64,000 bases of DNA, taken from assembly GCA_040902655.1 (NCBI GenBank), contig JBBDWV010000026.1:34219-98218 (forward strand). The letters are read 5' to 3'. The notes under the pieces are model-generated. The model did no database searches. It was not told the origin of the DNA and saw only the letters and a program-made list of their open reading frames with translations. Source of the DNA: Mycobacteriales bacterium. GTDB taxonomy: Bacteria; Actinomycetota; Actinomycetes; Mycobacteriales; SCTD01. Of this stretch, positions 17,623 to 35,292 are shown one piece after another. A program made the translations under genes and the position numbers. Position 1 is the first letter of the stretch, and each line of letters starts with the position of its first letter.

Positions 17623-17723
17623 ATCGTCCTTCCGGGCCAGCGCGAAATTGGTAGAACTCTTCCGTTACTCGAATCTCGCATTGCCATCGGCTGGCTGTCA
17701 ACTCGCGCCTGCTTGGGCTCAGC

Positions 17724-17746: not shown

Positions 17747-17873
17747 ACTGCCGCGCCCATGTCACTGTTCGACTATTGGAAGATTTGTTCAGTACCTTGG
17801 AAGGCACGTGACGCCGGTACTCCTGCGGAGGACCGCGCTCAGCAGGCGTCCCAGACGCCGGGAAGGCACGCCC

Positions 17874-20188: not shown

Positions 20189-20706
20189 CCGTCACTACGC
20201 CGCAGACCACGTCCGAGCCGGTGTTCTTCGAGCAGACCTGGGACCTGTCCTACCGGCACGCCCTGGGCGAGACCGTCGGTAGCTTCCTGCAGGGCGTCAA
20301 GGACAAGAAGCTCCTCGGGCGTCGGTGCCCGGTGTGCACGCGAGTGTTGTTCCCGGCCCGGTCCTTCTGCGACCGCGATCACGTCGCCACCGAGGAGTAC
20401 GTGGAGGTCGGCCACACCGGTGTACTGGAGATGTTCACCATCGTGTACGAGGCCTTCCCCGGCATGCGGGTGGCACCGCCGTACGTGCTGGCGTACGCGC
20501 TGCTCGACGGGGCGGACACCGCCGTCGTGGGCTACGTGAAGGGTATGGACCTCTCGGACGTCAAAGCTGCCTCCGGCCGGCTGACCGTCGGGACCCCGCT
20601 GGTCGTGCGCTTCCAGGAAAAGCCGGAGGGCGCGGTCACAGACTTCTGGTTCGAGCTGGCCGATTCGGGCGAGGAGACTGCCGGCGCCGCGCCCGACCTC
20701 GGATGA
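20185..20706 (+). CDS. Zn-ribbon/OB-fold DUF35 protein
   Basis: 173 residues. A rubredoxin-like zinc ribbon (RRCPVCTRVLFPARSFCDRD; C-x2-C and a later Cys) is followed by the OB-fold (VEVGHTGVLEMFTIVYEAFP, PPYVLAYALLDG). DUF35 partners bind thiolase-like proteins and hold the acyl-CoA substrate, as in Ltp2-ChsH2 and archaeal thiolase complexes. The N-terminal extension of about 45 residues (YRHALGETVGSFLQGVKDKK) is typical for this group. It overlaps both neighbours by 4 bp. A structural or substrate-channelling subunit of the complex with the two preceding proteins is the best reading. Confidence 0.9.
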   Translation: MTVTTPQTTSEPVFFEQTWDLSYRHALGETVGSFLQGVKDKKLLGRRCPVCTRVLFPARSFCDRDHVATEEYVEVGHTGVLEMFTIVYEAFPGMRVAPPYVLAYALLDGADTAVVGYVKGMDLSDVKAASGRLTVGTPLVVRFQEKPEGAVTDFWFELADSGEETAGAAPDLG

Positions 20707-22010
20707 GCTGCAGCGCACGCGTCGCGGTCATCGGCGCCGGGGCAGCCGGTCTCAGCTCTGCGCGGCACCTGCTGGAGGCCGGGCACGAGGTGACCGTGTT
20801 CGAGTTGGGCTCCTACGTCGGCGGCCTTTGGGTCTACGACAACGACAACGGGCTCAGCGCGGCGTACGCCTCGCTGCACATCAACTCCGAGCCTCGGGTC
20901 ACCCACTTCCGCGGCCTGCCGTTCGAGGACACGTCGTCGCTGTTTCCCTCGCACCGGGAGGTCAGCGACTACCTCGACCGGGTGGCGGACGTGTGCGGGA
21001 TCCGCCCGCACATCCGCTTCAACTGCCGCGTCGTCGACGTGTCACCGCTCGGTGGAGCGCCCGAGGCGGGCTGGGCGGTGCGCCTCCAGGACGGGAGGAC
21101 GGAGGAGTTCGACGCCGTCGTCGTCAGCTCCGGTCATCAGGGCGTGCCGGCGCACCCGGAGTGGGCCGCGCAGTTCGCGGGCGAATACCTGCACTCGCAC
21201 GACTACCGCGAGCCCGAGCCGTTCCGCGGCAAAACCGTGCTGGTCGTCGGCGTCGGCAACAGCGGGCTCGACATCGCAGCGGACCTGGCGCCGGTGGCGG
21301 CCCGCACGTACAGCGCCGCTCGCTCACCGGTCCTCATCATGCCGAGGATGATGTTCGGCGTGCCGACGGCGCGCGTGCTGGCCAAGGTCATGAAGCCCTG
21401 GATGCCGTGGGTCGTGCAGCGCCAGGTCCTGCGGACGATCAGCCGCATCTTCAACGGCCCCATGGAGAAATGGGGCTTTCGCACCCCGGTGACGCGCACC
21501 CACCCGGCGAGTAGCGCCACCTACATGTCCTACGTCGCCTACCGCAAGATCCTGGTCAAGCCGGGCGTCATGGGGGTCTCGGGACGGACGGTGACCTTCA
21601 GCGACGGCGACAGCATCGACGTCGACGTGGTGATCGGTGCGACGGGCTACGAGGTGGACCTGCCGTTCCTGTCGCCAGAGATCTCACCCGTCGTGGGTCG
21701 ACGGCTGGAGGCCTACCGGCGCATCGTGCACCCGGACTGGCCGGGCCTATACTTCGTCGGCTTCTTCAACGTCAGTGGAGGGGCGAACATCTCCATGATG
21801 GACGTGCAGACGCAGTGGCTGGCCCGGCTCGTGAGCGGGGAGGCCGAGCTGCCCTCGCGCGATGAGATGCTGGCCGACATCGCTGCTGAGCAGGCCTTCC
21901 TGTCCAGCCACTACCCAGGGGCGGCGCGGTACGGACTGGAGCTGGATCCCGTGCGCTACCGCAAGCAGATGGCCCGCGAGCTCGAGTCCTCTGCACGGGC
22001 GGGTGTCTGA
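20703..22010 (+). CDS. flavin-containing monooxygenase (class B, FMO/BVMO-like)
   Basis: 435 residues from the ATG that overlaps the DUF35 stop. FAD Rossmann motif VAVIGAGAAGLSSARHL; FMO signature region FAGEYLHSHDYREPEPFRGK directly before the NADPH Rossmann motif VLVVGVGNSGLDIA; later VIGATGYEVDLPFL. Such enzymes use NADPH and O2 to insert oxygen into ketones (Baeyer-Villiger) or to hydroxylate N or S. Its place between two thiolase/DUF35 modules suggests oxidation of a keto-acyl intermediate or a ring ketone. A longer frame upstream is only the shadow of the DUF35 gene. The substrate is not deducible. Confidence 0.9.
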   Translation: MSCSARVAVIGAGAAGLSSARHLLEAGHEVTVFELGSYVGGLWVYDNDNGLSAAYASLHINSEPRVTHFRGLPFEDTSSLFPSHREVSDYLDRVADVCGIRPHIRFNCRVVDVSPLGGAPEAGWAVRLQDGRTEEFDAVVVSSGHQGVPAHPEWAAQFAGEYLHSHDYREPEPFRGKTVLVVGVGNSGLDIAADLAPVAARTYSAARSPVLIMPRMMFGVPTARVLAKVMKPWMPWVVQRQVLRTISRIFNGPMEKWGFRTPVTRTHPASSATYMSYVAYRKILVKPGVMGVSGRTVTFSDGDSIDVDVVIGATGYEVDLPFLSPEISPVVGRRLEAYRRIVHPDWPGLYFVGFFNVSGGANISMMDVQTQWLARLVSGEAELPSRDEMLADIAAEQAFLSSHYPGAARYGLELDPVRYRKQMARELESSARAGV

Positions 22011-23169
22011 AGTGTCCTTGCGCGCAGCCGCGGCCGTCGTCGGGATCGGCGAGACCGAATACACGCGCCGGAGCGCGAAGACCTCGATGGAACTGCAGTT
22101 CGAGGCGTCGCTCACGGCTGTGGCCGACGCCGGACTGACGCCCCGGGACATCGACGGCGTCATCCCCGTCGGGATCACCGGAGCGCCGGCCGAGCAGTAT
22201 GTCGCCAACTTCGGGATCGAGGACCTGCGCTTCTCGGCGCTCATCCCGCACGGTGGGGCCAGCGGCATCGGAGCACTGCAGGCCGCAGCCGCCGCGATCG
22301 CGACCGGCGTGTGCGAGACCGTGCTCGTCGCGGCCGGGCGCAATGTCAGCTCCGGCGCCAGGGCAGGCGTCCGCATCCACTCGATGCCGCAGTTCCACCT
22401 CGTCACCGAGTTCGAGCGGCCCATCGGCGCCACAGCACCGGCGCAGCTCTACGCGCCGATGGCCCGCCGCCACATGGAGCTGTACGGCACGACCAGCGCG
22501 CAGTTCGGCGAGATCGCCGTGACCATGCGCGAACACGCGCTGCTGCACGGCAACGCGGTGATGACAAAGCCGATCACGCTGGAGGACCACCAGCAGTCAC
22601 GGATGATCGCCGATCCGTTCCGCCTGCTCGACTGCAGCCTGGAGAGCGACGGTGGAGCCGCCTTCGTGGTCACCTCGGCCGAGCGCGCGAGGGACCTCCG
22701 CCAGCCCAGCGTCGAGCTGCAGGGGGTAGCCATGGGGCACCCGCACTCGCCGAGCTCCATCACGCAGCGCGACGACATGACGAGGATCGGCATCGCCAAG
22801 GCGGCGCCGGTTGCCTTCGGGATGGCCGGGCTCGGTCCCGAAGACATGGACGTCGCCGAGATCTACGACTGCTTCACCTACGTGGTGCTTTGCCAGCTGG
22901 AGGACCTGGGGTTCTGCGCCAAGGGCGAGGGCGGCCGCTTCGTCGAGGGCGGTCGGCTGCGGCTGGACGGCGCGCTGCCCACCAATACCCACGGGGGGCT
23001 GCTGTCGCAGGGGCACATGCTGGGGATGAACCACATCGTGGAACTCGTCCGACAGCTGCGTGGGCAGGCCGGGCGAGCGCAGGTGGCGGGTGCCGAAGTG
23101 GGTCTGGCCACCGGCTACGGCGACATGGGCGACGGCGGACTGGCCGTCATGGCACGGGGACGCGGATGA
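22003..23169 (+). CDS. thiolase-superfamily protein (third copy)
   Basis: 388 residues from GTG 22003, overlapping the monooxygenase stop. A second GTG at 22012 is an alternative start. AAAVVGIGETEYTRRSAKTS opens the fold. The nucleophile region reads PHGGASGIGALQAAAAAI without Cys. Unlike the first two copies it keeps the C-terminal histidine in LLSQGHMLGMNH and has AEIYDCFTYVVLCQLEDLGF. It therefore resembles SCP-x/Ltp-type proteins more closely and may have a distinct function, for example aldol cleavage. It is followed with a 4-bp overlap by a second DUF35 protein, making a second module. Confidence 0.87.
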   Translation: MSEVSLRAAAAVVGIGETEYTRRSAKTSMELQFEASLTAVADAGLTPRDIDGVIPVGITGAPAEQYVANFGIEDLRFSALIPHGGASGIGALQAAAAAIATGVCETVLVAAGRNVSSGARAGVRIHSMPQFHLVTEFERPIGATAPAQLYAPMARRHMELYGTTSAQFGEIAVTMREHALLHGNAVMTKPITLEDHQQSRMIADPFRLLDCSLESDGGAAFVVTSAERARDLRQPSVELQGVAMGHPHSPSSITQRDDMTRIGIAKAAPVAFGMAGLGPEDMDVAEIYDCFTYVVLCQLEDLGFCAKGEGGRFVEGGRLRLDGALPTNTHGGLLSQGHMLGMNHIVELVRQLRGQAGRAQVAGAEVGLATGYGDMGDGGLAVMARGRG

Positions 23170-23585
23170 GCGACGGAGGGCCGGTGGCCGGACTGGCAGC
23201 GGACTACTGGAGGGGCGCCGAGCGGGGGGAGCTCGTGCTCCAGCAGTGCTTGCACTGCGGGCTGGTGCGGCACTACCCGCAGGTGCTGTGCCCGCGGTGC
23301 ACGTCCTTCGAGGTCGGGCCGCTGGTCGCGACTGGACGCGGGACGGTGCACAGCTGGACCGTCGCGCACCATCCCTACGACCCGGTATTCGCAGACGAGG
23401 TGCCGTACGTCCTGCTCACGGTCGACATGGAGGAGGGCGTGCGCGTGCTGGGGCGCTTCCCGGAGGCTGACGGGCTGTGTCTGGGCCTGCCCGTGCAGCT
23501 GGGCTTCACGCGCGACGGCACCGCTCAGCCGCGCCCGGTCTTCTCCCGCCGCGTCGCTGACGCCGGCGCAGCAGCGGGAGACTGA
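23166..23585 (+). CDS. Zn-ribbon/OB-fold DUF35 protein (second copy)
   Basis: 139 residues. The zinc ribbon is complete, with two C-x2-C pairs (LQQCLHCGLVRHYPQVLCPR and the following CT); the OB-fold includes GRGTVHSWTVAHHPYDP and VPYVLLTVDMEEGVRVLG. It is shorter than the first DUF35 protein and lacks its long N-terminal helix. It should partner the thiolase-like protein just upstream, whose stop it overlaps by 4 bp. The enoyl-CoA hydratase gene follows after 5 bp, so hydration and cleavage may be consecutive reactions as in steroid side-chain degradation. Confidence 0.9.
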   Translation: MSDGGPVAGLAADYWRGAERGELVLQQCLHCGLVRHYPQVLCPRCTSFEVGPLVATGRGTVHSWTVAHHPYDPVFADEVPYVLLTVDMEEGVRVLGRFPEADGLCLGLPVQLGFTRDGTAQPRPVFSRRVADAGAAAGD

Positions 23586-23590
23586 GCACC

Positions 23591-24358
23591 ATGCCGACAC
23601 CCAAGGTCCTGGTGGACGTCCACGACGGGTTGATGGTGATCACTCTCAACCGGCCCGAGGTGAAGAACGCCATCGACCGCGATGTGTCGTACGGCGTCTG
23701 CGCCGCCGTGGACGAGCTCGACGCGCGGGATGACCTGCGCGTCGGGATCCTCACCGGCGCCGGCGGGACCTTCTGCTCGGGAATGGACCTGGTGGCTTTC
23801 CTGCGCGGAGAGTCCCCGCGGGTGAAGGGCCGGGGGATCCTGGGCATCGCGCGCACGCCACCGGACAAGCCGCTCATCGCCGCGGTCGAGGGGTACGCGC
23901 TGGCCGGGGGGTTCGAGGCCGTCCTGGCCTGCGACCTGGTGGTCGCCTCGAGCGAGGCGCAGTTCGGCCTGCCAGAGGCCCGTCGCGGCCTGGCGGCCGC
24001 GGCGGGCGGGCTGATCCGGCTGCCCCGCCTGGTCCCGCAGCGCGTGGCGATGGAGCTCGCCCTGACGGGCGCCCCGGTCGATGCTGGGCGGCTGCACCAC
24101 TTCGGCCTGGTGAACCGGATCGTCGCGCCGGGGCAGGCGCTGGCCGAGAGCAGACTGCTGGCCGAGCAGATCATCGCGAACGCGCCGCTGTCGGTCGCGG
24201 CCAGCAAGCGCGTGATCCTGGCTCAGCGCGACTGGTCAGCGCAGGACAGCTTCGACCGCCAGGACGAGATCACCGCTGAGGTCCTGGCGTCCGAGGACGC
24301 GCGCGAAGGGGCCGCCGCCTTCGCCGAGAAGCGGCCGGCCCGCTGGACCGGTCGCTGA
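23591..24358 (+). CDS. enoyl-CoA hydratase/isomerase (crotonase family)
   Basis: 255 residues. VITLNRPEVKNAID, TFCSGMDLVAFLRGE (oxyanion-hole region), ALAGGFEAVLACDLVVASSE and AQFGLPEARRGL show the crotonase fold. Both glutamates used for hydration are present (AGGFE and LPE). Acts on 2-enoyl-CoA to give 3-hydroxyacyl-CoA, or carries out a related isomerisation. It is the last gene of a seven-gene plus-strand run that starts with the first thiolase gene, and it is convergent with the ferredoxin reductase gene 27 bp on. Confidence 0.92.
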   Translation: MPTPKVLVDVHDGLMVITLNRPEVKNAIDRDVSYGVCAAVDELDARDDLRVGILTGAGGTFCSGMDLVAFLRGESPRVKGRGILGIARTPPDKPLIAAVEGYALAGGFEAVLACDLVVASSEAQFGLPEARRGLAAAAGGLIRLPRLVPQRVAMELALTGAPVDAGRLHHFGLVNRIVAPGQALAESRLLAEQIIANAPLSVAASKRVILAQRDWSAQDSFDRQDEITAEVLASEDAREGAAAFAEKRPARWTGR

Positions 24359-24385
24359 CCGCTCGCCCGAGCCTCCGGGCCCGGC

Positions 24386-25591
24386 TCAGGCGGCGACCGC
24401 TTGCAGCGCGTCGGCGCGGGCGACCAACTCGGCGCGGTGGGGGAGCAGACTTTTGACCGCCCCCAGTCCGGCGACGCCGACGAGGGTGCCGTCGAGGTGG
24501 TAGCCGACGACGAGCTCGTGGTCCGGCCCCTCGTGCAGCACCCGCGTGTCGTGCAGCCCTGAGGCGGGGTTCCCGAAGGCCTGCAGCCGAAGGTCGTACT
24601 GGTCGGTCCAGAACGAGGGGATCGGCACGAAGGGCTTGTCGGGCGCAGAGCCGTAGCCCATTTCGGCGACGAGCGAGTGGGCGGCCCGCTTGGCCGTCTC
24701 GGGGACCATGTTCCAGTGCTCGATCCGACGGGGCCGGTCGCCGTAGAGGGGATGGGGGAAGCGGGCGACGTCGCCGACGGCCACCACCCGGTCCCCCCCT
24801 ACAGCCCGCAGGGAATTGTCACACAGGACCCCGTCCTCGAGGTCGAGCCCGTTCCCCGCGAGCCAGTCAACGTTGGGTTTCGACCCGACGGCCTCGACGA
24901 CCACGTCGGCGGCGAGCACGTCGCCCGACCCGAGCACGACGCCCTCGACGCGATCCTCGCCCCGGAGGCCAACGACGGCCTGCTCGGTACGGATCTGCAC
25001 GCCGTGCCGGGCGTGGCGCCGCGCGACAACGTCGGCCAACTCGCCGCCGAGGTGCTGCTCGAGCGGGCGCCGCTGAGGGATGACCAGCGTGACGTCGGAC
25101 CCTCGGACTGAAGCGGACGCAGCCACCTCGCAGCCAAGGAAGCCGCCGCCGACGACCACGACTCGGGCCCCCGGCGATAGGACACGGCGCAGGGCGCGCG
25201 AGTCACCCGCGGTGCGCAGGACATACCGGCCGGCGGCGGGCCCCGGAGCGGCCAGCCGGCGGGGACGCAGACCGGTGGCCACGACCAGGCCGTCGAACGG
25301 AATTTGCTCGCCGTCGGCGAGGTCGAGCTGGCCGTCGCCGATCGCTGCGCCAACGACCGCGCGACCCAGCCGCCACTGGATCCGGTCCCAACTGGGCTTG
25401 CGCCGGAAGAGCTCGAGTTCGTAGGCCTCCGCCTGCGTGAGCGCCTGCTTGGACAGGGCGGGCCGGTTGTACGGCTGCTCCGGCTCCTCACCGATGACGG
25501 TGACGGTGCCCGGGAAGCCTGCCGCCAGCAGCGACTCCGCCGCCCGGAGCCCCGAGAGAGACCCGCCGACGACGACGAGCTGGTCGACCAC
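24386..25591 (-). CDS. FAD-dependent ferredoxin reductase
   Basis: 401 residues. Two Rossmann motifs (VVVGGSLSGLRAAESLLAAG for FAD, VVVVGGGFLGCEVAASA for NAD), PYNRPALSKQAL, LVVATGLRPRRL and AVGDVARFPHP place it with the rubredoxin/putidaredoxin-reductase type of oxygenase-coupled reductases. It passes electrons from NAD(P)H to a ferredoxin. The ferredoxin gene is 2 bp upstream in the same operon. It is the last of eight minus-strand genes reading from the Rieske protein gene at 31104. No P450 or oxygenase alpha subunit is in the window, so the final electron acceptor is elsewhere or unusual. Confidence 0.93.
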   Translation of the reverse strand: MVDQLVVVGGSLSGLRAAESLLAAGFPGTVTVIGEEPEQPYNRPALSKQALTQAEAYELELFRRKPSWDRIQWRLGRAVVGAAIGDGQLDLADGEQIPFDGLVVATGLRPRRLAAPGPAAGRYVLRTAGDSRALRRVLSPGARVVVVGGGFLGCEVAASASVRGSDVTLVIPQRRPLEQHLGGELADVVARRHARHGVQIRTEQAVVGLRGEDRVEGVVLGSGDVLAADVVVEAVGSKPNVDWLAGNGLDLEDGVLCDNSLRAVGGDRVVAVGDVARFPHPLYGDRPRRIEHWNMVPETAKRAAHSLVAEMGYGSAPDKPFVPIPSFWTDQYDLRLQAFGNPASGLHDTRVLHEGPDHELVVGYHLDGTLVGVAGLGAVKSLLPHRAELVARADALQAVAA

Positions 25592-25593
25592 GG

Positions 25594-25779
25594 CTACTCC
25601 TCGAGGGAAATGGCCTGGACGGGGCAGGCATCGATGGACGCCTCGACGTCGTCGAGCAGGTCAGGACCCGGGTCGGCGTCGTACTCCAGGCCCTCCTCGG
25701 CCAGCGTGAAGACCTTCGGGGCCGCCAGGGTGCACTGGCCGTGCTCCTTGCAGAGCTCTCGATCGACAACGACTCTCAT
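25594..25779 (-). CDS. 3Fe-4S (or modified 4Fe-4S) ferredoxin
   Basis: 61 residues. MRVVVDRELCKEHGQCTLAA and ACPVQAISLEE. The cluster ligands are C10, C16 and a third Cys in CPVQA, while the usual second Cys is H13 (C-x2-H-x2-C). This pattern is typical of single-cluster ferredoxins that serve cytochrome P450s in actinobacteria. The upstream neighbour is an MBL-fold gene and the reductase gene follows. Its presence implies a P450 or another oxygenase as partner, not found here. Confidence 0.93.
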   Translation of the reverse strand: MRVVVDRELCKEHGQCTLAAPKVFTLAEEGLEYDADPGPDLLDDVEASIDACPVQAISLEE

Positions 25780-25834
25780 GTGTCCTGGTCCTCCGTCATC
25801 GTGCGGATCGGCGTGTACAGCGGAACACCCGGTG

Positions 25835-26686
25835 TCACGACGCGAGATCGGTCAGGACCTCGAGCACCGCCTCCACGTGCTGGTGCACCACGTCGCGGCC
25901 CTCCAGGACGAGCCCGTGGGCCGGGGCGATGCGGCCGACGTCGTACTCGTCGAATAGCGCCCGCACCCCGTCGAGCAAGGTTGTCGTTTTGGCGTGGCGC
26001 AGCCATTCGAACTTCGAGGTGAGGTGACCGGCGACCTGCGTCGGGTCCTGTTGCGCAGGCATCGCCGCGGTCAGCCGGCGTGGGCCGTCCGCCAGCTCGT
26101 TCAGGGTGTGCGTGAAGGAGTCCGACGTGAACAGGGTCGCGGTGGCGGCGTCGTAAGCCCACCAGGTCGCCAGCAGCCGGAGGCTGGGCGGGATCACCTG
26201 GAGGTCCCGGGCCGGACCAACCGGCATCCGGAAACCGGCTGGCATGCGCTCGAGCTGGATGCGCTCCCGCCGGTCGCCGAACTGCACCTCCCCGGCTGCC
26301 TCGAAGGAGTCGAACGGGTTCGGGCCGCCCCCGGCATAAAGGCGGTCCACCGGGAATGCACGGGCGATGGCGCCGATGCCGCCGGTCGTGTCCGGCTCCG
26401 CTCGCGTGACGAAGATGCTTACCGGTGAGCCGGCAGGGAGCAGCTGCTGCAGCTGCTCGACCACGACGTCGCCGAGCACCGCCGGTCCGGGGTCTACGAC
26501 CAGGCAGTGACCGTCGTCGAGCAGCACGTAGCAGTTCGACGGCTGCCACCCGCGGGCCTCCGGAGGTACCCAGCTGATCCGTCCGTCCAGCGCGATGCTG
26601 CTGCCCAGGAGGTAGAGCGCGTCGGGCACCAGCTCCACCAGCGCCGCCGCGGTCTCGGTCGAGGCCTCCGTCTGGGTAGGGCTCAT
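25835..26686 (-). CDS. MBL-fold protein with degenerate metal site
   Basis: 283 residues. The metallo-beta-lactamase fold is recognisable from CYVLLDDGHCLVVDPGPAVL, the FTSDSFTH strand and the C-terminal IAPAHG. At the metal motif, normally HxHxDH or HxExDH, it reads V-T-R-A-E-P-D-T-T-G-G, so the histidines are missing and only E and D remain. This resembles flavodiiron-type MBL domains that have lost ligands. A hydrolase or oxidoreductase role is therefore uncertain; a binding or scaffold role is possible. It is in the eight-gene operon, and a relative with a better metal site is encoded at 27431. Confidence 0.8.
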   Translation of the reverse strand: MSPTQTEASTETAAALVELVPDALYLLGSSIALDGRISWVPPEARGWQPSNCYVLLDDGHCLVVDPGPAVLGDVVVEQLQQLLPAGSPVSIFVTRAEPDTTGGIGAIARAFPVDRLYAGGGPNPFDSFEAAGEVQFGDRRERIQLERMPAGFRMPVGPARDLQVIPPSLRLLATWWAYDAATATLFTSDSFTHTLNELADGPRRLTAAMPAQQDPTQVAGHLTSKFEWLRHAKTTTLLDGVRALFDEYDVGRIAPAHGLVLEGRDVVHQHVEAVLEVLTDLAS

Positions 26687-26744
26687 CGGAGCCGTCCTCT
26701 CTTCCAGCTGCCGGGGCTCGTTGTCACGGGTCGTCGGGTGGTGG

Positions 26745-27398
26745 TCACAGCTCGACGACGAAGCGCACGGGGGACCCGTCCGAGCCGTCGATCCTCAGCG
26801 GGAAGGCGAAGGCCCGGCCGCGGCGTCCGACGACGAGTTCAAGGTCCTTGAGGTGTTCGGCGATCAGGACGCCGGCGCCGAGAAGCGTGTGATGGACGGG
26901 GAAGTCGAACCCCTCCGGCCGCAGGTGCTCAGGCCGGTCGGGGGACGGGACGTCGATAGCCACCATCTTCAGCTGCTGGTCCACCAGCCAATGGGCGGCG
27001 TCGTGGCTCAGCCAGGGGTGCCGGCGGTAGGTCTCGCGATCGGTCGAGAAGTACTGCGACCAGCCGGTGCGCAGCAAGAGGATGTCGCCGGGCTGCAGAC
27101 CTGGATCGGCAGTCCGGAGCTCGTCGGCGGTGATCTCGTGATCAGGGCCGCACGCCACGGCCATGCCGATCGCCGGTCCGCTGACGCGGTCGAGGGACAG
27201 CTCCTCGATGCTCTCGGCTCCCGGGATGAAGTGCGCGGGCGCGTCGAGGTGAGTGCCGGAGTGGACGGCGCAGTCCAGGTGCGTGACGTTCACGCCGTGG
27301 CTGTCCAGAGACTTCAGCCGGGTCACCCGGATCGGGGGGAGGGTCGTGAGCCCGAACATGCCGTCGGTGAAGTGGTGCGTCAGGTCCACGAGCTGCAC
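26745..27398 (-). CDS. cyclase-family hydrolase (kynurenine formamidase-like)
   Basis: 217 residues. MQLVDLTHHFTDGMFG and the metal-binding signature HSGTHLDAPAHF are diagnostic; RTGWSQYF and VAIDVPSPD follow at the usual spacing. Members hydrolyse amides or lactones, or open cyclic imides and isatin-like rings, with Mn or Zn. All metal-binding residues are present. It lies 32 bp after the second MBL gene within the operon. A second cyclase-family gene is at 42137. The reaction may be ring opening, but the substrate is not known. Confidence 0.88.
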   Translation of the reverse strand: MQLVDLTHHFTDGMFGLTTLPPIRVTRLKSLDSHGVNVTHLDCAVHSGTHLDAPAHFIPGAESIEELSLDRVSGPAIGMAVACGPDHEITADELRTADPGLQPGDILLLRTGWSQYFSTDRETYRRHPWLSHDAAHWLVDQQLKMVAIDVPSPDRPEHLRPEGFDFPVHHTLLGAGVLIAEHLKDLELVVGRRGRAFAFPLRIDGSDGSPVRFVVEL

Positions 27399-27430
27399 GC
27401 GGGTCTCCTTCCTCGGGTCGTTGCGCCGGC

Positions 27431-28264
27431 TCAGCCGACGAACGCCTTGCGATGGGCGGCCTTGAGGACCGGCATGATCACGTTGAGGTCGTCTACGACG
27501 CTGCCGTGCGCCGGGGCGAGCAGCCGCGTGGGGTACTTCTCGAGCAGCGCGTCGAACCGGTCGAAGTACTGGTCGATCCGCACGAACCGGCTCCAGAACA
27601 GCGACGACTTCGTCAGGTGGGTGGCCAGGTCCAGGTCCGGCGGGTGGTCGAGCTCACTGGCAAGTAGCGCGCACTCCCCGACCCGGTGCAGCGGCTCGTC
27701 GACGTCGCGCGACGGCTGCGGCAGGTGCCCGTAACCGAGCGCGTCGACCGGGAAGAGCACCTGCTGCTTCTTCTCGTAGCCCCAGACGGTGGAGGGCAGG
27801 TCGCGGATCACGGCCTCGAGGACGACGAACACGAAGCCGCCGCCCAGGTCGATCTCCGTGCCGTGGGGGACCGCCGTCATGCGGTCAGCGAAGTTCGGGA
27901 AGTAGAGGTGGTAGTCGCGCAGGTCGCCCAGCACCTGCGCCTCCGGGTAGGTCGTGAGGACCCGGTCGAGGCTGCCGGCGTGCGGGATTTCGGGGTGGGA
28001 GGGGACGATGTAGTCCAGCGCCCGGCCCTGCAGGACATGCGCCAGGTCGGCCTCGATCTTGTCCCACGCACCGGCCGGGCCGGTGTCGAACAGCAGGGTC
28101 CGGTCCTCGCCCAGGACGAGGTAGGCGGAGGTGTGAAAGTGCACCGGCTCATCGAAGGCCGAGCTCTCGAGGCAGGAGCCGAGCCACCAGACGCCGCTGG
28201 CCAGCTCGCGGGGCAAGCCCGCGCCGCCGGTGGACGGAACCGCTTCTGTCTGGGTCGCGCTCAT
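27431..28264 (-). CDS. MBL-fold protein (flavodiiron-like metal motif)
   Basis: 277 residues from ATG 28264. An upstream extension to 28366 overlaps the amidohydrolase gene and is less likely. The metal motif is V-P-S-H-P-E-I-P-H-A-G-S: two His and Glu of HxExDH are kept, with Pro where Asp is usual. LLFDTGPAGAWDKIE, FPVDALGYGH and LAPAHGSVV supply the other fold elements. It starts MSATQTEAV, similar to the MSPTQTEAS start of the other MBL protein, so the two probably arose by duplication. Likely a metal-binding hydrolase or oxidoreductase in the same pathway. Confidence 0.82.
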   Translation of the reverse strand: MSATQTEAVPSTGGAGLPRELASGVWWLGSCLESSAFDEPVHFHTSAYLVLGEDRTLLFDTGPAGAWDKIEADLAHVLQGRALDYIVPSHPEIPHAGSLDRVLTTYPEAQVLGDLRDYHLYFPNFADRMTAVPHGTEIDLGGGFVFVVLEAVIRDLPSTVWGYEKKQQVLFPVDALGYGHLPQPSRDVDEPLHRVGECALLASELDHPPDLDLATHLTKSSLFWSRFVRIDQYFDRFDALLEKYPTRLLAPAHGSVVDDLNVIMPVLKAAHRKAFVG

Positions 28265-28319
28265 GCCGGATCTCCAGGTGGATTGGACGTCGGTGCCGGA
28301 CTGTCCATTGGTCCCGTGC

Positions 28320-29546
28320 TCACTGCGGGACGGGCGGTTGAAACTGGGTGGGTGCGTCGAGGCCACCGGGTCCGGTCGCGCCGGGGAACTCGCTCCAGTG
28401 CCGGGAGCTGCGGGTGCTGGACAGTCGCAGCTTCTCGATCGCGTTGAGGCCGAGGATCTGGGCGCGGACCTCGCGCGAGACGCCTTGGAAGCCCATTGCC
28501 GTGCTGTAGTCGCCGTCCCAGTGCGGGTAGTCGGTCGCGAACTCGAGCGTCGTGGGCCCGAGCCACTCGATGACGCGCGCCATGTACTTCATGTCGCGCG
28601 GCTCCTCGTAGGGCTGGCGCGTGAACGAGACGTGCTCGCGGACGTAGTCCGACGGCTTCCGCTCGAGCGCCGGCACCTCGGAGCGCAGGGACTGCCAGTG
28701 CTTGTCCAGCCGCCACAGCAGCGGCAGGCACCAGGCGTAGCCTCCCTCGACGAAGGTGAAGCGAAGGTCGGGGAAGCGACCGAAGACGCCCTCCTCCAGC
28801 AGGCTGACCAGGTGAGCGGCGTAGAGCATGGAGAACTGCGCGTGGTTCTCCAGGAAAGTCCGCGGCGCGCCCGACGACGTGAGCAGCGCCGGGCCTGGGC
28901 GCTGGAGCGTGACGTGCGTGCACACGACCAGCCCGGCCCGCGACGCCGCCTCGTAGACCGGCCAGAAGGTCCGGTGCCCGAGCGGGATACCGAGGTAGGG
29001 GTTGAGCATGACCTGCACGAAGTGCGGGTGGCCGGCCCACTTCTCGATCTCGCGCACCGCGAGGTCGGGGTCCGAGCTGACGCGGATCGTGCCCTTGTAG
29101 CGCTCGTGGCCGTTGTACTCGCCGAGCCACGAGCTGGCCAGCCAGGTGTTGTTGGCGGCAGACATCGCCGCCTCGTGCTCAGGGTTGGCGGCGGACTTGT
29201 CGGTGAGCGGGATGATGACCGCCAGGTCCACACCTGCCTCGTCGAACAGCTGCCGGCCGGTCAGCCCTGGATCGGAGCCGGCGGGGCCGCCGTCGCTGCC
29301 GAAGGCGTCCAGCCGCCGTCCCTCGTTGGGAGGCGCGAAGATGACCGACGCCCCGAGGATGCCGCCACCGTAGAGAAGGTCCTTGAAGTGGGCCCACTCG
29401 GACGGGAGGCTGTCGGCTAGCTCCACGGCGCTGCGCGGGTTCACGTGGATGTCGCTGTCGACGACCTTGACAGGAACCGTCTCCGACGCGCTGGTGCCGG
29501 AGGGGGCGGCCGCTGGCGCGTGCGTGGTCGAGGACAGGCTCGTCAT
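28320..29546 (-). CDS. amidohydrolase family 2 (ACMSD-like decarboxylase/hydrolase)
   Basis: 408 residues. VVDSDIHVNPRSAVELA has the N-terminal Asp and His metal ligands (D32, H34). VVCTHVTLQ and the C-terminal FATDYPHWDGD supply further ligands, and FTFVEGGYAWCLPLLWRLDK is typical of the group. Members include ACMSD, gamma-resorcylate decarboxylase and related C-C cleaving hydrolases of aromatic catabolism. All key ligands look intact. The gene overlaps the upstream paralogue by 4 bp. The two products share architecture, but only this one keeps the metal site, so a heteromer with one active subunit is plausible. Confidence 0.88.
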   Translation of the reverse strand: MTSLSSTTHAPAAAPSGTSASETVPVKVVDSDIHVNPRSAVELADSLPSEWAHFKDLLYGGGILGASVIFAPPNEGRRLDAFGSDGGPAGSDPGLTGRQLFDEAGVDLAVIIPLTDKSAANPEHEAAMSAANNTWLASSWLGEYNGHERYKGTIRVSSDPDLAVREIEKWAGHPHFVQVMLNPYLGIPLGHRTFWPVYEAASRAGLVVCTHVTLQRPGPALLTSSGAPRTFLENHAQFSMLYAAHLVSLLEEGVFGRFPDLRFTFVEGGYAWCLPLLWRLDKHWQSLRSEVPALERKPSDYVREHVSFTRQPYEEPRDMKYMARVIEWLGPTTLEFATDYPHWDGDYSTAMGFQGVSREVRAQILGLNAIEKLRLSSTRSSRHWSEFPGATGPGGLDAPTQFQPPVPQ

Positions 29547-30715
29547 CGGTCTCCTCCGGTGGGCAGGCCGCGGTAGAGGTCGTGAGCATTTTCGAGCAGG
29601 ACCCGGCGGCGCAGGTGCTCGTCAGCGGACGGAAGCAAACCGTCGACCGGCAGGAAGTCCCAGGCGGGGTAGCCACTTCCGTAAAGGAGAACCCTCTCTG
29701 CGTCGGACATGACGGCCCACTCGTCGACCAGCGCGTCGTCGGTCGGTCCCTCGTTGAGGCGGGACACGAAGCGCACGTTGTCCAGCAGGTACTCGGACGG
29801 GAGCCGCGACATCCAGGGCATGTCCGGCCGCATCGGCCGGTAGTCCTTGTCCATCCGCCACATCATCGTGGCGGCGAAGTCCCAGCCGCCGTCGCCGAAG
29901 ACCACGCGGAACTCGGGCAGGTCGTCGAAGACGCCCTCGACCATGAGGCTGGCAAGGTGATTGACCAGCGTCAGCGGCTGGTAGGAGGCGAAGCCCAGGA
30001 AGGTGCGGAAGTAGCCGCTGGCGGAAGGGGCGAACTCGACACCGGTCTCGGCATCGGCCCGGATCATGACGGGCAGTCCGCGCTCGGCGGCAGCCCGCCA
30101 GATCGGCCAGAAGCTGCGCTTGCCGTACGGCTGGAGCGACTGCAGCGGGACGCTGACCTGGACGAACCGCGGATCGTCGGCCCAGCGCTCGATCTCGCGG
30201 ACCGCTGCCTCCGCGTCGCCCGGTGCCACCCGGATGGAACCGCGGTAGCGCTGATCCGCACCGGGACGGTCGAGCCAGGTGCTGGCCAGCCACTCGTTGG
30301 TCGCCGAGCAGATGGCCGTGAGCAGGTCGATGTCGGGGAGCAGCCCCAGGGTCAGCGGGTTGAGCACCGCCATGGTGACCGGGGAGTCCACGAACAGGTG
30401 CCGCTCGAGCAGCTCGGGGTCCGACCCGGGCGGGCCGTCACCGTCGTAGGCCTCGCGCAGGTAGTCGCCCAGCACGTTTGGGTAGTAGTAGCGCTCGCCG
30501 GAGGGCAGCCGCCGGTCACCCCAGACCCGAGGGAGGTACGCGCGCAGGTCGGCCTGCTCGCGCGGCCGGACCTGGACCGAGGCGTCGACGACGTCGTGGC
30601 GGACGGTGCGACCGGAGCCGGCCCGGTCGTGCAGCGAGGTCCGGGCGAGGTCGGCCAACCGTCCGCCGGTGAGCTCGGTGGCGCCGCGCGGCGGTGTTCC
30701 GGTGGGGGCGCTCAT
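29543..30715 (-). CDS. amidohydrolase paralogue lacking metal ligands (pseudoenzyme?)
   Basis: 390 residues from ATG 30715. A longer frame upstream is a shadow of the Rieske gene. It aligns along its whole length with the next gene's product (shared AVLNPLTLG-like centre, NEWLASTWL, RYRGSIRVAP, FWPIWRAAAERG). The metal-binding positions are changed: D32-I-H34 becomes S46-V-Q48, the CTH histidine becomes R in MIRAD, and ATDYPHWD becomes G-S-G-Y-P-A-W-D. It is otherwise well kept with no stop or frameshift, so selection seems to maintain it without catalysis, perhaps as a regulatory or assembly subunit. It overlaps both neighbours by 4 bp. Confidence 0.86.
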   Translation of the reverse strand: MSAPTGTPPRGATELTGGRLADLARTSLHDRAGSGRTVRHDVVDASVQVRPREQADLRAYLPRVWGDRRLPSGERYYYPNVLGDYLREAYDGDGPPGSDPELLERHLFVDSPVTMAVLNPLTLGLLPDIDLLTAICSATNEWLASTWLDRPGADQRYRGSIRVAPGDAEAAVREIERWADDPRFVQVSVPLQSLQPYGKRSFWPIWRAAAERGLPVMIRADAETGVEFAPSASGYFRTFLGFASYQPLTLVNHLASLMVEGVFDDLPEFRVVFGDGGWDFAATMMWRMDKDYRPMRPDMPWMSRLPSEYLLDNVRFVSRLNEGPTDDALVDEWAVMSDAERVLLYGSGYPAWDFLPVDGLLPSADEHLRRRVLLENAHDLYRGLPTGGDR

Positions 30716-31104
30716 CGGGCGACCTCCGCGGCCGCCCGAGCGGCAGGCCGGACCGGCAGGCTCACGACGATCTTCCCGTCCTGTTCGTGCGCCGGGTAGG
30801 TGAGGACCTTGATGGCGGGCTGCGCCACCGTCTCGCCCTCCGGCAGCCGGAACTCCCACCCGTGCCACGGGCAGCGCAGGATCTTGCCGTCGGCCTCCCA
30901 GCGGCGCTGCCCGGGACCGTCCGAGACGACCATGCCCGTGAGCACGCCGCGGCACAGCGGCGCACCTGCGTGCGGACACAGGTTGCGCACCGCGACGTAC
31001 TCGCCGTCGATGTTGTAGATCCCGAACTCGAGCTTGCCGATCGTCACGATCGAACTGCCGCCGGGGGGAACCTCCTGCGCGTCACACACCACGTGCTCGG
31101 TCAT
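30712..31104 (-). CDS. Rieske 2Fe-2S ferredoxin-type protein
   Basis: 130 residues with one Rieske domain. Cluster ligands are in CPHAGAPLC and, 34 residues later, CPWHGWEF (C-x-H and C-x2-H). There is no membrane segment and no oxygenase catalytic domain, so this is a soluble electron carrier like the ferredoxin components of ring-hydroxylating dioxygenases. It is the first gene of the eight-gene operon, so the reductase at its far end could reduce it. A terminal oxygenase alpha subunit is not seen. A palindrome lies about 90 bp upstream of its start. Confidence 0.92.
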   Translation of the reverse strand: MTEHVVCDAQEVPPGGSSIVTIGKLEFGIYNIDGEYVAVRNLCPHAGAPLCRGVLTGMVVSDGPGQRRWEADGKILRCPWHGWEFRLPEGETVAQPAIKVLTYPAHEQDGKIVVSLPVRPAARAAAEVAR

Positions 31105-31193
31105 GCGGTCATCCCGTCCGTCGTGTCGGCCGGCAACGCGCGAGCCCGCGTCCTCTGCAGACAGGTTCTCTCATGCGCGTCAGGCGCTCTTCG

Positions 31194-31219
31194 GGAACTG
31201 GAAACTTATTCCTAGTTCC
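31194..31219. promoter_or_regulatory. 26-bp imperfect palindrome upstream of the Rieske operon
   Basis: Outer arms GGAACT (31194-31199) and AGTTCC (31214-31219), with inner GGAA and TTCC also facing each other. It sits between the Rieske gene start and the end of the TPP-enzyme gene, where the promoter of the eight-gene operon should be. A regulator-binding site is likely, but the protein is unknown. Confidence 0.55.
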
Positions 31220-31271
31220 AGGATACTCGGTCACCCGGCACGGTCAAGAGCCGGCAACGGCGCGATGACGG

Positions 31272-32990
31272 TCACCGACCAGCCACGTGGCCGGACAGGA
31301 ACCCGGCCACGACGTCCGGGCTGACCTTGCAGTCGAGCACGAGCGGGCCCACGCGCCCGGTGGCCAGCAGCGGAGCCAGGGCCTCGAGGTCGGCCACGGT
31401 CCGCACCGTGGCCGCCTCGAGCGCGAACGCCTCGGCCAAGGCGGCAAAGTCGGTGTCGGGGAACATGGCCTGCTTGCCCGAGAACCCGCGCAGCTCGAGG
31501 AAGTGGCGCTCGGCCCCGTAGGCAGCATCATTCATGATCACCACGATGAGCGGCAGGTCCAGGCGCGCCAGGGTCTCCAGCTCACCGAGCGACATCAGCA
31601 TTGCCCCGTCGCCGATGAACAGGACGGTGCAGGTGTCCGGTCGCGCGATCGTCGCGCCCATGGCCGTTCCGAACCCCAGGCCGATCGTAGAGAAGTCGGA
31701 ACTGAGCTTGAAGCGGTCCGGCGACGGCACCCTCATGTGTGGCGGGATGAAGCCGAAGAAGTTGCCGTTGTCGGTTACGACGGCCCGGTCGTCGGGCAGC
31801 AGCCGGTCGAGCTCCAGGATCAGGGTCCGCGGATCGATCGCCCACCGGGTGCTCGCCGCCTCGAAGTCGGCGGCCGGATCGAAGCGGGCGAGCAGCTCAA
31901 TGTTCTCGGCGCTGTGCAACGGCTTGTCCTCCGGGCTGCGCTCCGGCAGCGCGGCGAGGAGCTGCTCGCAGACCACGCGCGCGTCGCCCACCACCGCCAC
32001 GTCGGCCCAGTAGAAGCGCCCGATACTTGCGCGGTCGCTGTCCACGTGCACCACCGGTGCGGTGGGCAGCCCGCTGCCGTCGCTGGTGCTCTTGAGGTTC
32101 AGGCTCGCACCGAAGGTCAGGACGCAGTCCGCCTCGTCCATCAGGCGTCGTCCAGCCGTATGCGACCACGATCCGATCAGGCCGGCGTTGAGCGGGTGCC
32201 CCGCGAACATGCCGATGCCGCGCAGGGAGGTCGACAGGACGGCGCCGATCCTGTCGGCCAGCTCGACCAGCGCCGACGTGGCGCCCGCAGACCAGGCCCC
32301 TGCCCCGGCGACAATCATCGGCCGACGGCTCCGGGAGATCATGGCGACAGCCGCGTCGATGGACTGCTGGCGCGCCGGGAGCGGTGCGGGGGACGGACCA
32401 GGTCCGGTGGCCGTGCTGGCTGGCAGCTCCACGGGAGCCTCGAACAGGTCGCGCGGGATCGTCAGCAGGACCGTGTGCCCGCGCATCGCCGCACCTGCCG
32501 CGTCCAGCACGGCGTGCGGGAGCGACCGGGCGGTCTGCGGCGTGAACGTCGGGAAGCCGCAGCCCGCACCTACGACGGCGATGTCGAGCGCCTTGCCGTC
32601 TGGCAGCAGGACGCTGTTCGCCGGCGGGTGCACCCACTCGTCCCCCGTGATGGCGAGGACAGGAGTGGCGTCGCCCCGGGCCGCGTTGGCCAGGGCGGTG
32701 AGCGCGTTCGTGGTGCCGGGCCCCCGGCTGATGACGCACACGCCGAGAGCACCGGTTGTGCTCGCGTAGCCGGCCGCCATGGCCACGGCGGCGTTCTCGT
32801 GCCGGGCGTCGTGGTACCGGACGCCGCGGTCCACGAGCGCCGACACGAGCCGCACCGTGTCGTCGCCCATGAGCCCGAAGACGTCGTGGACACCCAGGTC
32901 GACCAGCAGCGCGGCCGTGGCCTCGTACGCGGGCTGGAACCCGGTCGGCGCAGCGGCCGACTTGGTGTGGGGCACGGGCATGTCCTTCAT
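31272..32990 (-). CDS. thiamine-diphosphate-dependent enzyme (acetolactate synthase/benzoylformate decarboxylase family)
   Basis: 572 residues, full length. The N-terminal Pyr domain holds the catalytic Glu (E65 in DARHENAAVAMAAGYA); a central domain follows; the C-terminal PP domain has IGDGAMLMSLGELETLARLD and the VIMNDAAYG end of the ThDP motif. Family members decarboxylate 2-oxoacids or form acyloins. The neighbourhood includes a hydroxyacid oxidase, which would make 2-oxoacids, so decarboxylation of an arylglyoxylate-like acid is an attractive guess. It starts next to a promoter region shared with the ABC importer. No sign of damage. Confidence 0.9.
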   Translation of the reverse strand: MKDMPVPHTKSAAAPTGFQPAYEATAALLVDLGVHDVFGLMGDDTVRLVSALVDRGVRYHDARHENAAVAMAAGYASTTGALGVCVISRGPGTTNALTALANAARGDATPVLAITGDEWVHPPANSVLLPDGKALDIAVVGAGCGFPTFTPQTARSLPHAVLDAAGAAMRGHTVLLTIPRDLFEAPVELPASTATGPGPSPAPLPARQQSIDAAVAMISRSRRPMIVAGAGAWSAGATSALVELADRIGAVLSTSLRGIGMFAGHPLNAGLIGSWSHTAGRRLMDEADCVLTFGASLNLKSTSDGSGLPTAPVVHVDSDRASIGRFYWADVAVVGDARVVCEQLLAALPERSPEDKPLHSAENIELLARFDPAADFEAASTRWAIDPRTLILELDRLLPDDRAVVTDNGNFFGFIPPHMRVPSPDRFKLSSDFSTIGLGFGTAMGATIARPDTCTVLFIGDGAMLMSLGELETLARLDLPLIVVIMNDAAYGAERHFLELRGFSGKQAMFPDTDFAALAEAFALEAATVRTVADLEALAPLLATGRVGPLVLDCKVSPDVVAGFLSGHVAGR

Positions 32991-33004
32991 CTAATCGAAT
33001 CGTG

Positions 33005-33171
33005 CTTCGAAATTTGTATCGTCATGTCATCACGCGCAGCGGCACCAGTCAACCCGCGTCACGGCGCGGGGGTGCGCAGAGCCGGCCGGGGTCAGGGGCC
33101 TTGACTTTCGTGCAGGCCACTGTGACCCTGCTCACCGCATGGCTTCGCAGTTTGGGATACGAATTCGAAAG
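33005..33171. promoter_or_regulatory. pair of related inverted sites in a divergent promoter region
   Basis: CTTCGAAATTTGTATCG (33005-33021) and GGATACGAATTCGAAAG (33155-33171) are near reverse complements of each other (GATAC-AATT-CGAA core, one gap). They lie about 150 bp apart between the TPP-enzyme gene and the importer operon. Such a pair could be bound by one regulator that loops or controls both directions. I see no other gene or RNA in the roughly 300-bp gap. Confidence 0.4.
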
Positions 33172-33289
33172 TAGGCCGCTCCGGAAGCGACCGCCGCGTC
33201 TCAGGATCCCGGTCTCGGACTCATGAGCCCGCAGCTGCGACACCCTCGTACACGGCAACTACGCCGTCGACCGAAAGAGAGCGTTTCTG

Positions 33290-34417
33290 ATGAGATCGAC
33301 TATCACGTCGCGCGGAGCTCGTGCTGCTGCCGGCGCCTGCGCCCTCACCCTCACGCTGGTCGCCTGCGGCAGCGAGTCCGACACCGCCGGCGGCGACGGG
33401 AAGACGATCGCGGGGGGCGAGGAGACCACCAGCCTGTCGTTCGGCGTGACCAACCCGGACCTGCCCGGCTCCGCCTACTACGCCGCTGTGCCGACCTACC
33501 TCGAGTACTGGACCGACGAGGGGCTGGACGTCACGTTCGACGCCTACAACGGCACCGGCGAGGTCATGACCGCGGTCGCCACGGGCAAGACGGACGTCGG
33601 CTCCGGCGGCACGATGGGCGCCATGGCCGCCGTCGTCAACGGCGGCGCCGACCTGAAGGTCTTCTACAGCTACATCCCCAACAACCCGTACTGGCCAGTC
33701 GTGATGCCCGACAGCGACATCGACTCGCTCGACGACCTGGTGGGAAAGACGGTCGGCACGTTCAGCCTGGCCGGTGATGGCGCCGGACTGCTCAAGGGCG
33801 TCATGGAAGCCGAGGGCCTCGACCCGAACTCGGTCGACATCGTCGCCGTGGGAGTCGGGGCGGAGGCATACGAGACGCTCAAGTCGGGTCGCATCGCGGC
33901 CTACATCGGCTATGACTCGGTCTACGGCCAGATCGAGGCCCTTGGTCACGAGATCCGGAGGATCGACTCCCCCATCGACGACTTCGGCTGGCTGGGCGGC
34001 ATCGCCGCACCGGCGACAATGATCAAGGGGCAGCGGGAGACCCTGGTGACGTTCGGCCGTGGGCTTGCGAAGGCCGCGGTCTTCACCAAGGCCAACCCAG
34101 AGTGCGCGCTCAAGATCCAGTGGGAGGTCTACCCCGAGTCCAAGCCGGCCGGCGTGGCCGACGACCAGGCCGTGAAGGACGGCGTGGAGTCGTTGATGTC
34201 GCGGCTCAAGAGCCAGTTCCCCGTCGACGAACAGTGGGGCCGTGTCGCGGAGCGGACGGTGCAGGAACGCATCGACATCGCGGTGGAGAGCGGCGAGCTC
34301 GCCAAGCCCCTGCCGGTAGAGGAGATCTGGGACCCCTCGCTGCTCGACGACATGAACGACTTCGACGTCGCAGAGATCGAGAAGGCTGCCGCAGACTGCA
34401 GAATGGTAGAGGGCTGA
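33290..34417 (+). CDS. ABC importer substrate-binding lipoprotein (NitT/TauT, NMT1-like)
   Basis: 375 residues. A lipoprotein signal (basic start, hydrophobic ALTLTLVAC) ends at a lipobox Cys near residue 26, so the protein should be anchored outside the membrane. The mature part (SLSFGVTNPDLPGSAYYAAV, TYLEYWTDEGLDVTF, ATGKTDVGSGGTMG) matches NMT1/SsuA-type periplasmic-binding proteins for sulfonates, taurine, nitrate, pyrimidine precursors and aromatic acids. ATPase and permease genes follow in order, completing the transporter. Given the catabolic context, an organic acid is a likely ligand; this is inference. Confidence 0.92.
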   Translation: MRSTITSRGARAAAGACALTLTLVACGSESDTAGGDGKTIAGGEETTSLSFGVTNPDLPGSAYYAAVPTYLEYWTDEGLDVTFDAYNGTGEVMTAVATGKTDVGSGGTMGAMAAVVNGGADLKVFYSYIPNNPYWPVVMPDSDIDSLDDLVGKTVGTFSLAGDGAGLLKGVMEAEGLDPNSVDIVAVGVGAEAYETLKSGRIAAYIGYDSVYGQIEALGHEIRRIDSPIDDFGWLGGIAAPATMIKGQRETLVTFGRGLAKAAVFTKANPECALKIQWEVYPESKPAGVADDQAVKDGVESLMSRLKSQFPVDEQWGRVAERTVQERIDIAVESGELAKPLPVEEIWDPSLLDDMNDFDVAEIEKAAADCRMVEG

Positions 34418-34449
34418 TGGTCGGGGGCGTTCTGCAGATCAGGAGACCC

Positions 34450-35292
34450 ATGACTGCCAAGAGGAATCCTCTCGGCGACGGCGGACATCCCCTGCCCACC
34501 GACTCCGCGGTGCGCCTGCGGGTCACGGACGTGGATAAGTCCTACGGCGACGACGAGAGCTCCAAGCTCGCCGTGAAGGGTGTCTCCTTCGACGTCCGCG
34601 CCGGTGAGTTCGTGTCCCTCGTCGGCCCCAGCGGCTGCGGCAAGAGCACGATGCTCAAGGCGTGCGCCGGCCTCCTGCCCATCACGTCCGGGACGATCGA
34701 CTACGACGGGACGGGCGGCCCTGCGCTGCCCGGCAGGTACGGGATGGTCTTCCAGACCTCCACCCTGCTGCCGTGGTGGACCGTGCTGCAGAACGTCCTC
34801 CTGCCAGCCCGGGTCCTGCACCTGGAGATGAAGCCCGCGACGAGGCGGGCCCGCGAGTTGCTCGAGCTCGTGGGGCTCGGCGGCACGGAGGACAAGTACC
34901 CGGGGGAGCTCTCGGGCGGCATGCAGCAGCGCGCCTCGCTGGCCCGCGCGTTGCTGCACGAGCCGGACCTCGTCTTCATGGACGAGCCCTTCGGCGCCCT
35001 CGACGCGATCACCCGCGACAGCATGAACACGCTGCTGCAACAGATCGCCCGGGAACTCAGGCAGACGATCCTGTTCGTTACGCACTCCATCCAGGAGGCT
35101 GTGTGGCTCTCGGACCGCGTCCTGGTCATGTCGAGCGGTCCCGGCCGGATCATCGAGGATGTCGAGGTCGACTTTCCGAGGCCGCGCAACCTCGCGCTGC
35201 TCGCCAACGAGCGCTTCCGGACGTTGGAGGTCCAGCTCAAGGAGGAGCTCAACGCGACACTGATGAGCGACTCCGGGAGGGGCCGACCATGA
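34450..35292 (+). CDS. ABC importer ATP-binding protein (NitT/TauT type)
   Basis: 280 residues from the ATG 5 nt after AGGAG. A longer frame upstream is the shadow of the binding-protein gene. Walker A GPSGCGKST, Q-loop MVFQTSTLLPWW, signature LSGGMQQR, Walker B LVFMDEPFGALD and H-loop FVTHSIQEAVWL are all intact. It powers uptake by the permease encoded in the overlapping next gene. An N-terminal extension of about 20 residues precedes the nucleotide-binding domain. It shows the standard features of SsuB/TauB-type ATPases. Confidence 0.93.
   Translation: MTAKRNPLGDGGHPLPTDSAVRLRVTDVDKSYGDDESSKLAVKGVSFDVRAGEFVSLVGPSGCGKSTMLKACAGLLPITSGTIDYDGTGGPALPGRYGMVFQTSTLLPWWTVLQNVLLPARVLHLEMKPATRRARELLELVGLGGTEDKYPGELSGGMQQRASLARALLHEPDLVFMDEPFGALDAITRDSMNTLLQQIARELRQTILFVTHSIQEAVWLSDRVLVMSSGPGRIIEDVEVDFPRPRNLALLANERFRTLEVQLKEELNATLMSDSGRGRP

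Follow-up and report, generated by a model that had tools for sequence, protein, structure and literature searches.

A predicted amidohydrolase-related dinuclear monooxygenase forms the core of an eight-gene cluster in a Mycobacteriales bacterium

A stretch of 64,000 nucleotides from a Mycobacteriales bacterium (GenBank assembly GCA_040902655.1, contig JBBDWV010000026.1, positions 34,219 to 98,218 of the forward strand; hereafter the window, to which all coordinates refer) contains eight genes in a putative operon that runs on the minus strand from 31104 to 24386. A first-pass annotation had read these genes as an oxidative ring- or chain-cleaving system with no P450 or Rieske oxygenase alpha subunit in the window, and had described two of the products as ACMSD-like amidohydrolases. 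Comparison with characterised proteins points elsewhere on both counts: the missing oxygenase is likely to be AH2, one of these two amidohydrolase-family proteins, and the operon core would accordingly encode a three-component amidohydrolase-related dinuclear monooxygenase (ARO). The description as an oxidative multi-component system holds up, but its ring- or chain-cleaving part is unsupported as stated; the chemistry of known AROs begins with hydroxylation of a C-H bond.

The closest PDB relatives of AH2 (28320–29546; Amidohydro_2, PF04909, 4e-30) are the AROs 8SM7 (3e-64), SfbO (8SM6, 2e-53) and AibH2 (6M1W_B, 2e-44). ACMSD chains lie far behind at only 2e-5, and PtmU3 is likewise distant (1e-8). 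The six metal ligands of AibH2 (D25, H27, H211, E265, D337 and H340) correspond to D32, H34, H211, E267, D339 and H342 of AH2, so that the dinuclear set of three His, two Asp and one Glu is complete, and the second-sphere D342 of AibH2 is matched by D344. The assignment of AH2 as the oxygenase is based on this full retention of the AibH2 ligands, together with the fact that AROs encoded beside a small Rieske protein constitute a published family. Such a Rieske [2Fe-2S] ferredoxin is encoded by the first gene of the operon (30712–31104; PF00355, 3e-16), with an intact CxH...CxxH motif, and we infer an AibG-like role for it. In a survey of 62 ARO loci (two on Rhodococcus plasmids, the other 60 from the phylum of the host), 53 have a Rieske gene close to the ARO, and about 26 have a partner resembling the second amidohydrolase-family protein (AH1). 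The order Rieske-AH1-AH2 is identical in several genomes of the host's order (L123-L126), and the host genome itself has a single ARO pair.

The best-studied comparison is AibH1H2GF of Rhodococcus wratislaviensis, which hydroxylates alpha-aminoisobutyrate using two PF04909 subunits, a Rieske ferredoxin and a reductase (PMC7782822), and in which AibH1H2 has a Mn/Fe cofactor (PMC10401708). Both systems have two homologous PF04909 subunits, of which one has all the dinuclear-site ligands, alongside a small Rieske ferredoxin, a reductase and a catabolic cluster with a transporter; in both, the gene for the partner subunit adjoins that for the catalytic one. The identity to the Aib subunits is about 35% for AH2 and about 30% for AH1. 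In contrast to AibF, which is of the FMN/2Fe-2S type, the operon reductase is a Pyr_redox_2 FAD protein and is accompanied by a second ferredoxin. The aib catabolic genes for a PLP (pyridoxal phosphate) enzyme and an amino-acid permease were not found here, and the metallo-β-lactamase (MBL)-fold protein pair and cyclase-family protein described below are not listed for the aib cluster as tabulated in its paper (PMC7782822, PMC10401708). Further AROs were discovered through their Rieske neighbours (PMC10811679), and these, SfbO included (8SM6, 8SM7, 8SM8 and 8SM9), are the closest solved structures to AH2, with the same ligand set and a Rieske neighbour; that work produced and characterised each of them as a single protein. 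PtmU3 (platensimycin) and LynB7 (lyngbyapeptin, PMC10127204) are also amidohydrolase-fold dinuclear oxygenases, but these are biosynthetic, lie outside catabolic operons and are distant from AH2.

AH1 (29543–30715; PF04909, 5e-25) likewise matches AROs in the PDB (9e-55), with no ACMSD match at 1e-3, and is predicted to be a metal-less ARO partner subunit. At the six ligand positions it has S46, Q48, R219, D275, G348 and A351, so that none of the ligands is kept, and the mononuclear site of AibH1 (D24, H26, H201, E255 and D328) is also gone (S46, Q48, R219, D275 and G348). This bears out the initial observation that one amidohydrolase had lost its metal ligands. Many of the partner subunits in other ARO loci have broken ligand sets, which indicates that a dead partner is common in this ARO branch, AH1 being an extreme case.

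All eight genes are present on one strand as first annotated; every one matches a Pfam model and shows a coding signature typical of high-GC genomes. Downstream of AH2 lie the genes for MBL1, a flavodiiron-like MBL-fold protein with a non-canonical site (27431–28264; Lactamase_B/ODP, 7e-9), a cyclase-family hydrolase (26745–27398; PF04199, 1e-31) with an intact HxGTHxDxPxH motif, whose PDB relatives are metal-dependent hydrolases such as isatin hydrolase and kynurenine formamidase, and MBL2, a degenerate partner of MBL1 (25835–26686; ODP, 3e-6). These are followed by a 61-aa ferredoxin (25594–25779; Fer4, PF13459, 2e-11), probably of the 3Fe-4S type judging by its three Cys and one His (C10-x2-H13-x2-C16...C52-P), and an FAD/NAD(P)H ferredoxin reductase (24386–25591; Pyr_redox_2, PF07992, 2e-52, plus Reductase_C), for which the nearest NCBIfam models are dioxygenase ferredoxin reductases, with a score below cut-off. 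The 4-bp overlaps, reported earlier as several, are real but number exactly two (ATGA, at Rieske/AH1 and AH1/AH2); the remaining intergenic gaps are 2-58 bp, and a purine-rich ribosome-binding stretch precedes the start codon at most of the non-overlapping genes.

A promoter-like site (TTGACC-16-TATCCT, minus strand, 31220–31247; a consensus match only) precedes the Rieske gene, and was the only such site in the region 24000-33500, compared with 0.3 expected in shuffled sequence. It is directly followed by an 11-bp inverted repeat, GGAACTAGGAA-TAAG-TTTCCAGTTCC (31194–31219), a possible operator present only once in the window and only once genome-wide. The same 24000-33500 region gave no terminator-like site. 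The lone promoter-like site and the repeat fit one eight-gene unit starting at the Rieske gene, and co-transcription of the eight genes is plausible on these signals. The position of the promoter-like site also places the next gene upstream, which encodes a thiamine diphosphate (ThDP)-dependent enzyme and ends 167 bp from the Rieske gene, outside this unit; it is probably on a separate transcript.

The eight genes could also be read as two or more independent modules (the ARO set, the MBL pair, the cyclase, and the ferredoxin and reductase) that form a loose neighbourhood as opposed to one pathway. The complete set and order were seen only in the genome of the window, MBL pairs and AROs are for the most part found apart from each other, and even the closest homologous locus (L068; AH2 66%, AH1 58%, Rieske 51%, MBL1 62% and MBL2 50% identical) had no detectable homologue of the cyclase, the 3Fe-4S ferredoxin or the reductase beside the pair. 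The co-occurrence check proposed with the first-pass annotation therefore gave a divided answer: Rieske-AH1-AH2 and MBL1-MBL2 are each conserved, and the two modules meet in other genomes, but all eight genes do not. Against a loose neighbourhood, ARO and Rieske genes adjoin the MBL pair in six distinct loci (L068, L094, L095, L111, L113 and L114; L116 duplicates the L114 record and was not counted separately), which belong to a proteobacterial metagenome-assembled genome (MAG), a Roseomonas MAG, a Rhizobiales MAG (L095) and three haloarchaea (L111, L113 and L114). With the ARO density estimated for the richest genomes, the 1.1 Mb examined should hold at most about 1.2 ARO-linked loci (Poisson 0.0015). 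Taken with the tight same-strand spacing and the one promoter-like site, this linkage makes us regard independent modules as the unlikely alternative. In the Rhizobiales locus, an arylmalonate-decarboxylase-family protein is encoded between the MBL pair and the ARO (L095:7615-8373).

Several points weigh against AH2 as the oxygenase of a three-component ARO. An AH1-AH2 heteromer of the AibH1H2 type can only be presumed, given that AH1 has no metal site, and AibH1 depends on this site for solubility; two carriers are encoded here, compared with one ferredoxin and another type of reductase in known ARO systems; and three large Rieske alpha subunits of the VanA/phthalate-dioxygenase type (L187, L189 and L190, on contigs C5, C52 and C24, respectively) are encoded elsewhere in the host genome and might in theory draw on these carriers. 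On this basis, the carriers might serve an unlinked oxygenase, with the amidohydrolases, the cyclase and the MBL proteins acting downstream as non-redox hydrolases or ACMSD-like decarboxylases; PF04909 does include mononuclear decarboxylases too. The three alpha subunits escape a PF00848 search of the host genome, which matched no Rieske oxygenase alpha subunit, and were seen in a wider PF00355 search that recovered several Rieske-domain proteins on other contigs, these three among them; we therefore do not claim that the host genome is without Rieske oxygenases. However, VanA/phthalate-type oxygenases are generally fed by FMN/2Fe-2S reductases, not by Rieske ferredoxins. An unlinked oxygenase would also leave unexplained why AH2 resembles AROs so much more closely than ACMSD and has a full dinuclear site, and why a Rieske gene adjoins the AROs in most genomes. 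A P450 as hidden partner of the carriers was ruled out, as none was found across the host genome. With no P450 present and the other Rieske oxygenases unlinked, AH2 is the only linked acceptor for the electron carriers of the operon, and we consider it improbable that they serve another enzyme.

The MBL proteins appear to form a conserved two-protein metal enzyme module that is separate from the ARO set and undescribed; no account of the pair turned up in searches of the open literature. Relatives of MBL1 were gathered from plasmids and 84,980 species genomes, the genome search relying on a narrow MBL1 alignment that biases the resulting 48 genome loci towards the bacterial type. In the resulting 60 loci, which come from actinobacteria, proteobacteria and haloarchaea, MBL1 and MBL2 genes lie next to each other on the same strand 75 times, in either order. 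The two genes are adjacent in nearly all 60 loci; in the window, the cyclase gene sits between them. Distances within the MBL1 and MBL2 families correlate (r = 0.95), a value inflated by shared ancestry. In a subset from Arthrobacter, Sinomonas and Microbacterium (L064, L069 and L072-L084), two tandem MBL2-MBL1 pairs occur with no ARO nearby, and genes for a solute-binding protein and an isochorismatase-like hydrolase lie between the tandem pairs.

MBL1 consists of 277 residues forming an MBL domain only, and its best match by both hmmsearch (FprA, 5e-22) and fold is the flavodiiron protein FprA, flavodiiron proteins being the top Foldseek matches of its AlphaFold model (pLDDT 88). The MBL2 model (pLDDT 86) has the same flavodiiron/ODP fold, and like MBL1 it has no flavodoxin domain. 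The predicted MBL1 site comprises H90, E92, P94, H95, D155, D174 and H253, and shares the HxE...H, D and H metal positions of FprA and ODP. Across 74 aligned MBL1 sequences there is no variation at H90, P94, H95, D155, D174 and H193; position 92 holds either E or D, and 73 sequences have H253, the remaining one having a gap there. All 74 depart from the flavodiiron proteins in having HxExPH in place of HxExDH, the canonical Asp being replaced by Pro, and an Asp in place of the loop His. MBL1 further differs from FprA and ODP in its degenerate partner, nearly always encoded next to it. In bacterial MBL2 the metal motif is lost (R95; position 100 is T here and mostly C, S or T), as had been recognised for one of the two MBL proteins at the outset. 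Haloarchaeal MBL2 (L111, L113, L114 and L065) is unlike the bacterial protein in retaining part of the motif (SHxDYPHSG-like), which suggests that degeneration of the partner may be gradual.

The resemblance to flavodiiron proteins and the oxygen-binding ODP, the carboxylate-rich invariant site and the presence of two electron carriers raise the prospect that the MBL pair is a second O2-activating enzyme with a diiron site, fed by the 3Fe-4S ferredoxin. The operon would then encode two dinuclear-metal enzymes, each pairing an active with a metal-dead subunit, that carry out two successive oxidations. We give this little credence, since the ligands differ from those of the flavodiiron proteins (D to P and H to D), a flavodoxin domain is missing, and a ferredoxin or reductase is not near the pair in most of the 60 loci. 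Outside the six ARO-linked loci, the pair is set among organic-acid genes, namely tripartite tricarboxylate, TRAP or ABC transporters and CoA transferases, with HMG-CoA lyase or CitE/HpcH proteins and aconitase-like hydratases as further neighbours; electron-transfer genes are generally absent there, the exceptions being a ferredoxin in the Rhodococcus loci L061 and L087. This setting speaks more for hydrolysis than for redox chemistry by the MBL pair, although a hydrolytic role itself is, on the gene context, still slightly short of an even call.

For the ARO, we propose that NAD(P)H would supply electrons to AH2 through the FAD reductase and either or both of the ferredoxins. AH2 would use a Mn/Fe or Fe/Fe site to activate O2 and would hydroxylate its substrate, an imported small carboxylic acid or a similar anion, at a C-H bond, and AH1 would serve as a structural subunit, the role suggested for AibH1. 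The later steps are held with less confidence: the cyclase-family hydrolase and/or MBL1/MBL2 may hydrolyse a later product (a lactone, amide or thioester), and an FMN-dependent hydroxy-acid dehydrogenase and RraA aldolase encoded nearby, possibly with the ThDP enzyme, may form a 2-oxo acid that is then cleaved.

The genes concerned lie upstream of the operon. The ThDP-dependent enzyme (31272–32990, minus strand) has three thiamine pyrophosphate domains, scores below every equivalog cut-off and shows only distant similarity to 2-hydroxyacyl-CoA lyase; its pathway role is uncertain. Divergent from it on the plus strand are an NMT1/SsuA-type ABC importer (solute-binding protein, ATPase and permease; 33290–36146), tied to the operon by position only, an RraA-family aldolase/decarboxylase (36171–36890; PF03737, 2e-31) and the FMN-dependent alpha-hydroxy-acid dehydrogenase (36887–38071; PF01070, 7e-127). 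A sulfonate pathway, hinted at by the SsuA-like transporter and a weak Xsc similarity of the ThDP protein, was rejected, the protein being far below the Xsc cut-off. Homologues of the dehydrogenase (43-63%) occur in 5 of the 62 ARO loci, against about 0.6 expected from genome counts, and all five also hold a pyruvate-type aldolase: HpcH in L067, L141, L142 and L185, and RraA in L148. In L148 the genes for the RraA homologue (47%) and the dehydrogenase directly adjoin each other, as they do in the window, and two AROs and a Rieske gene lie alongside. The association has a hypergeometric probability of 3e-6 (3e-5 with L141 and L185 collapsed), in a test that was devised after data inspection and covers few loci. 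This co-occurrence supports a sequence of hydroxylation, alpha-hydroxy acid oxidation and aldol cleavage, and the importer, RraA and dehydrogenase, genes of which kinds are met again close to other AROs, together suggest small-acid catabolism ending in aldolase cleavage; for the operon itself, we hold the dehydrogenase/aldolase exit route tentatively and lean somewhat against it. At one of the five loci (L142:1868-12119), genes for two AROs are clustered with those for a Rieske protein, a P450, an FAD ferredoxin reductase, an FMN hydroxy-acid dehydrogenase and an HpcH aldolase. SMP-30 (gluconolactonase-like) genes were considered as recurrent neighbours of AROs and set aside, with a count of 1 in 62 loci.

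Further afield, 38087-42140 encodes a CoA-transferase of family III, an IclR regulator and an acyl-CoA ligase, the IclR protein being a candidate regulator for the palindrome at 31194-31219. On the other side of the operon lies a second catabolic set (15063-24358). Its minus-strand genes encode CoA-transferase A/B and acyl-CoA dehydrogenase, and its plus-strand genes encode three thiolase-like proteins, two ChsH2-type OB-fold proteins, an FMO-like flavin-binding monooxygenase and an enoyl-CoA hydratase; the set is tied to the ARO operon by position only.

For the full set of eight genes we found no described pathway, in agreement with the first-pass annotation. AROs, an oxygenase class defined only recently, include the first firmly shown Mn-dependent C-H hydroxylase, and hundreds are predicted, with native substrates hardly known (PMC10401708, PMC10811679). 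The operon core would add a new form to the three-component ARO monooxygenases, and the locus shows that an ARO partner subunit can be entirely without metal ligands. The unusually full context, comprising an importer, an aldolase, a hydroxy-acid dehydrogenase and hydrolases, helps the search for a substrate. The most interesting by-product is that the locus points to a conserved two-protein MBL module that extends from actinobacteria to haloarchaea.

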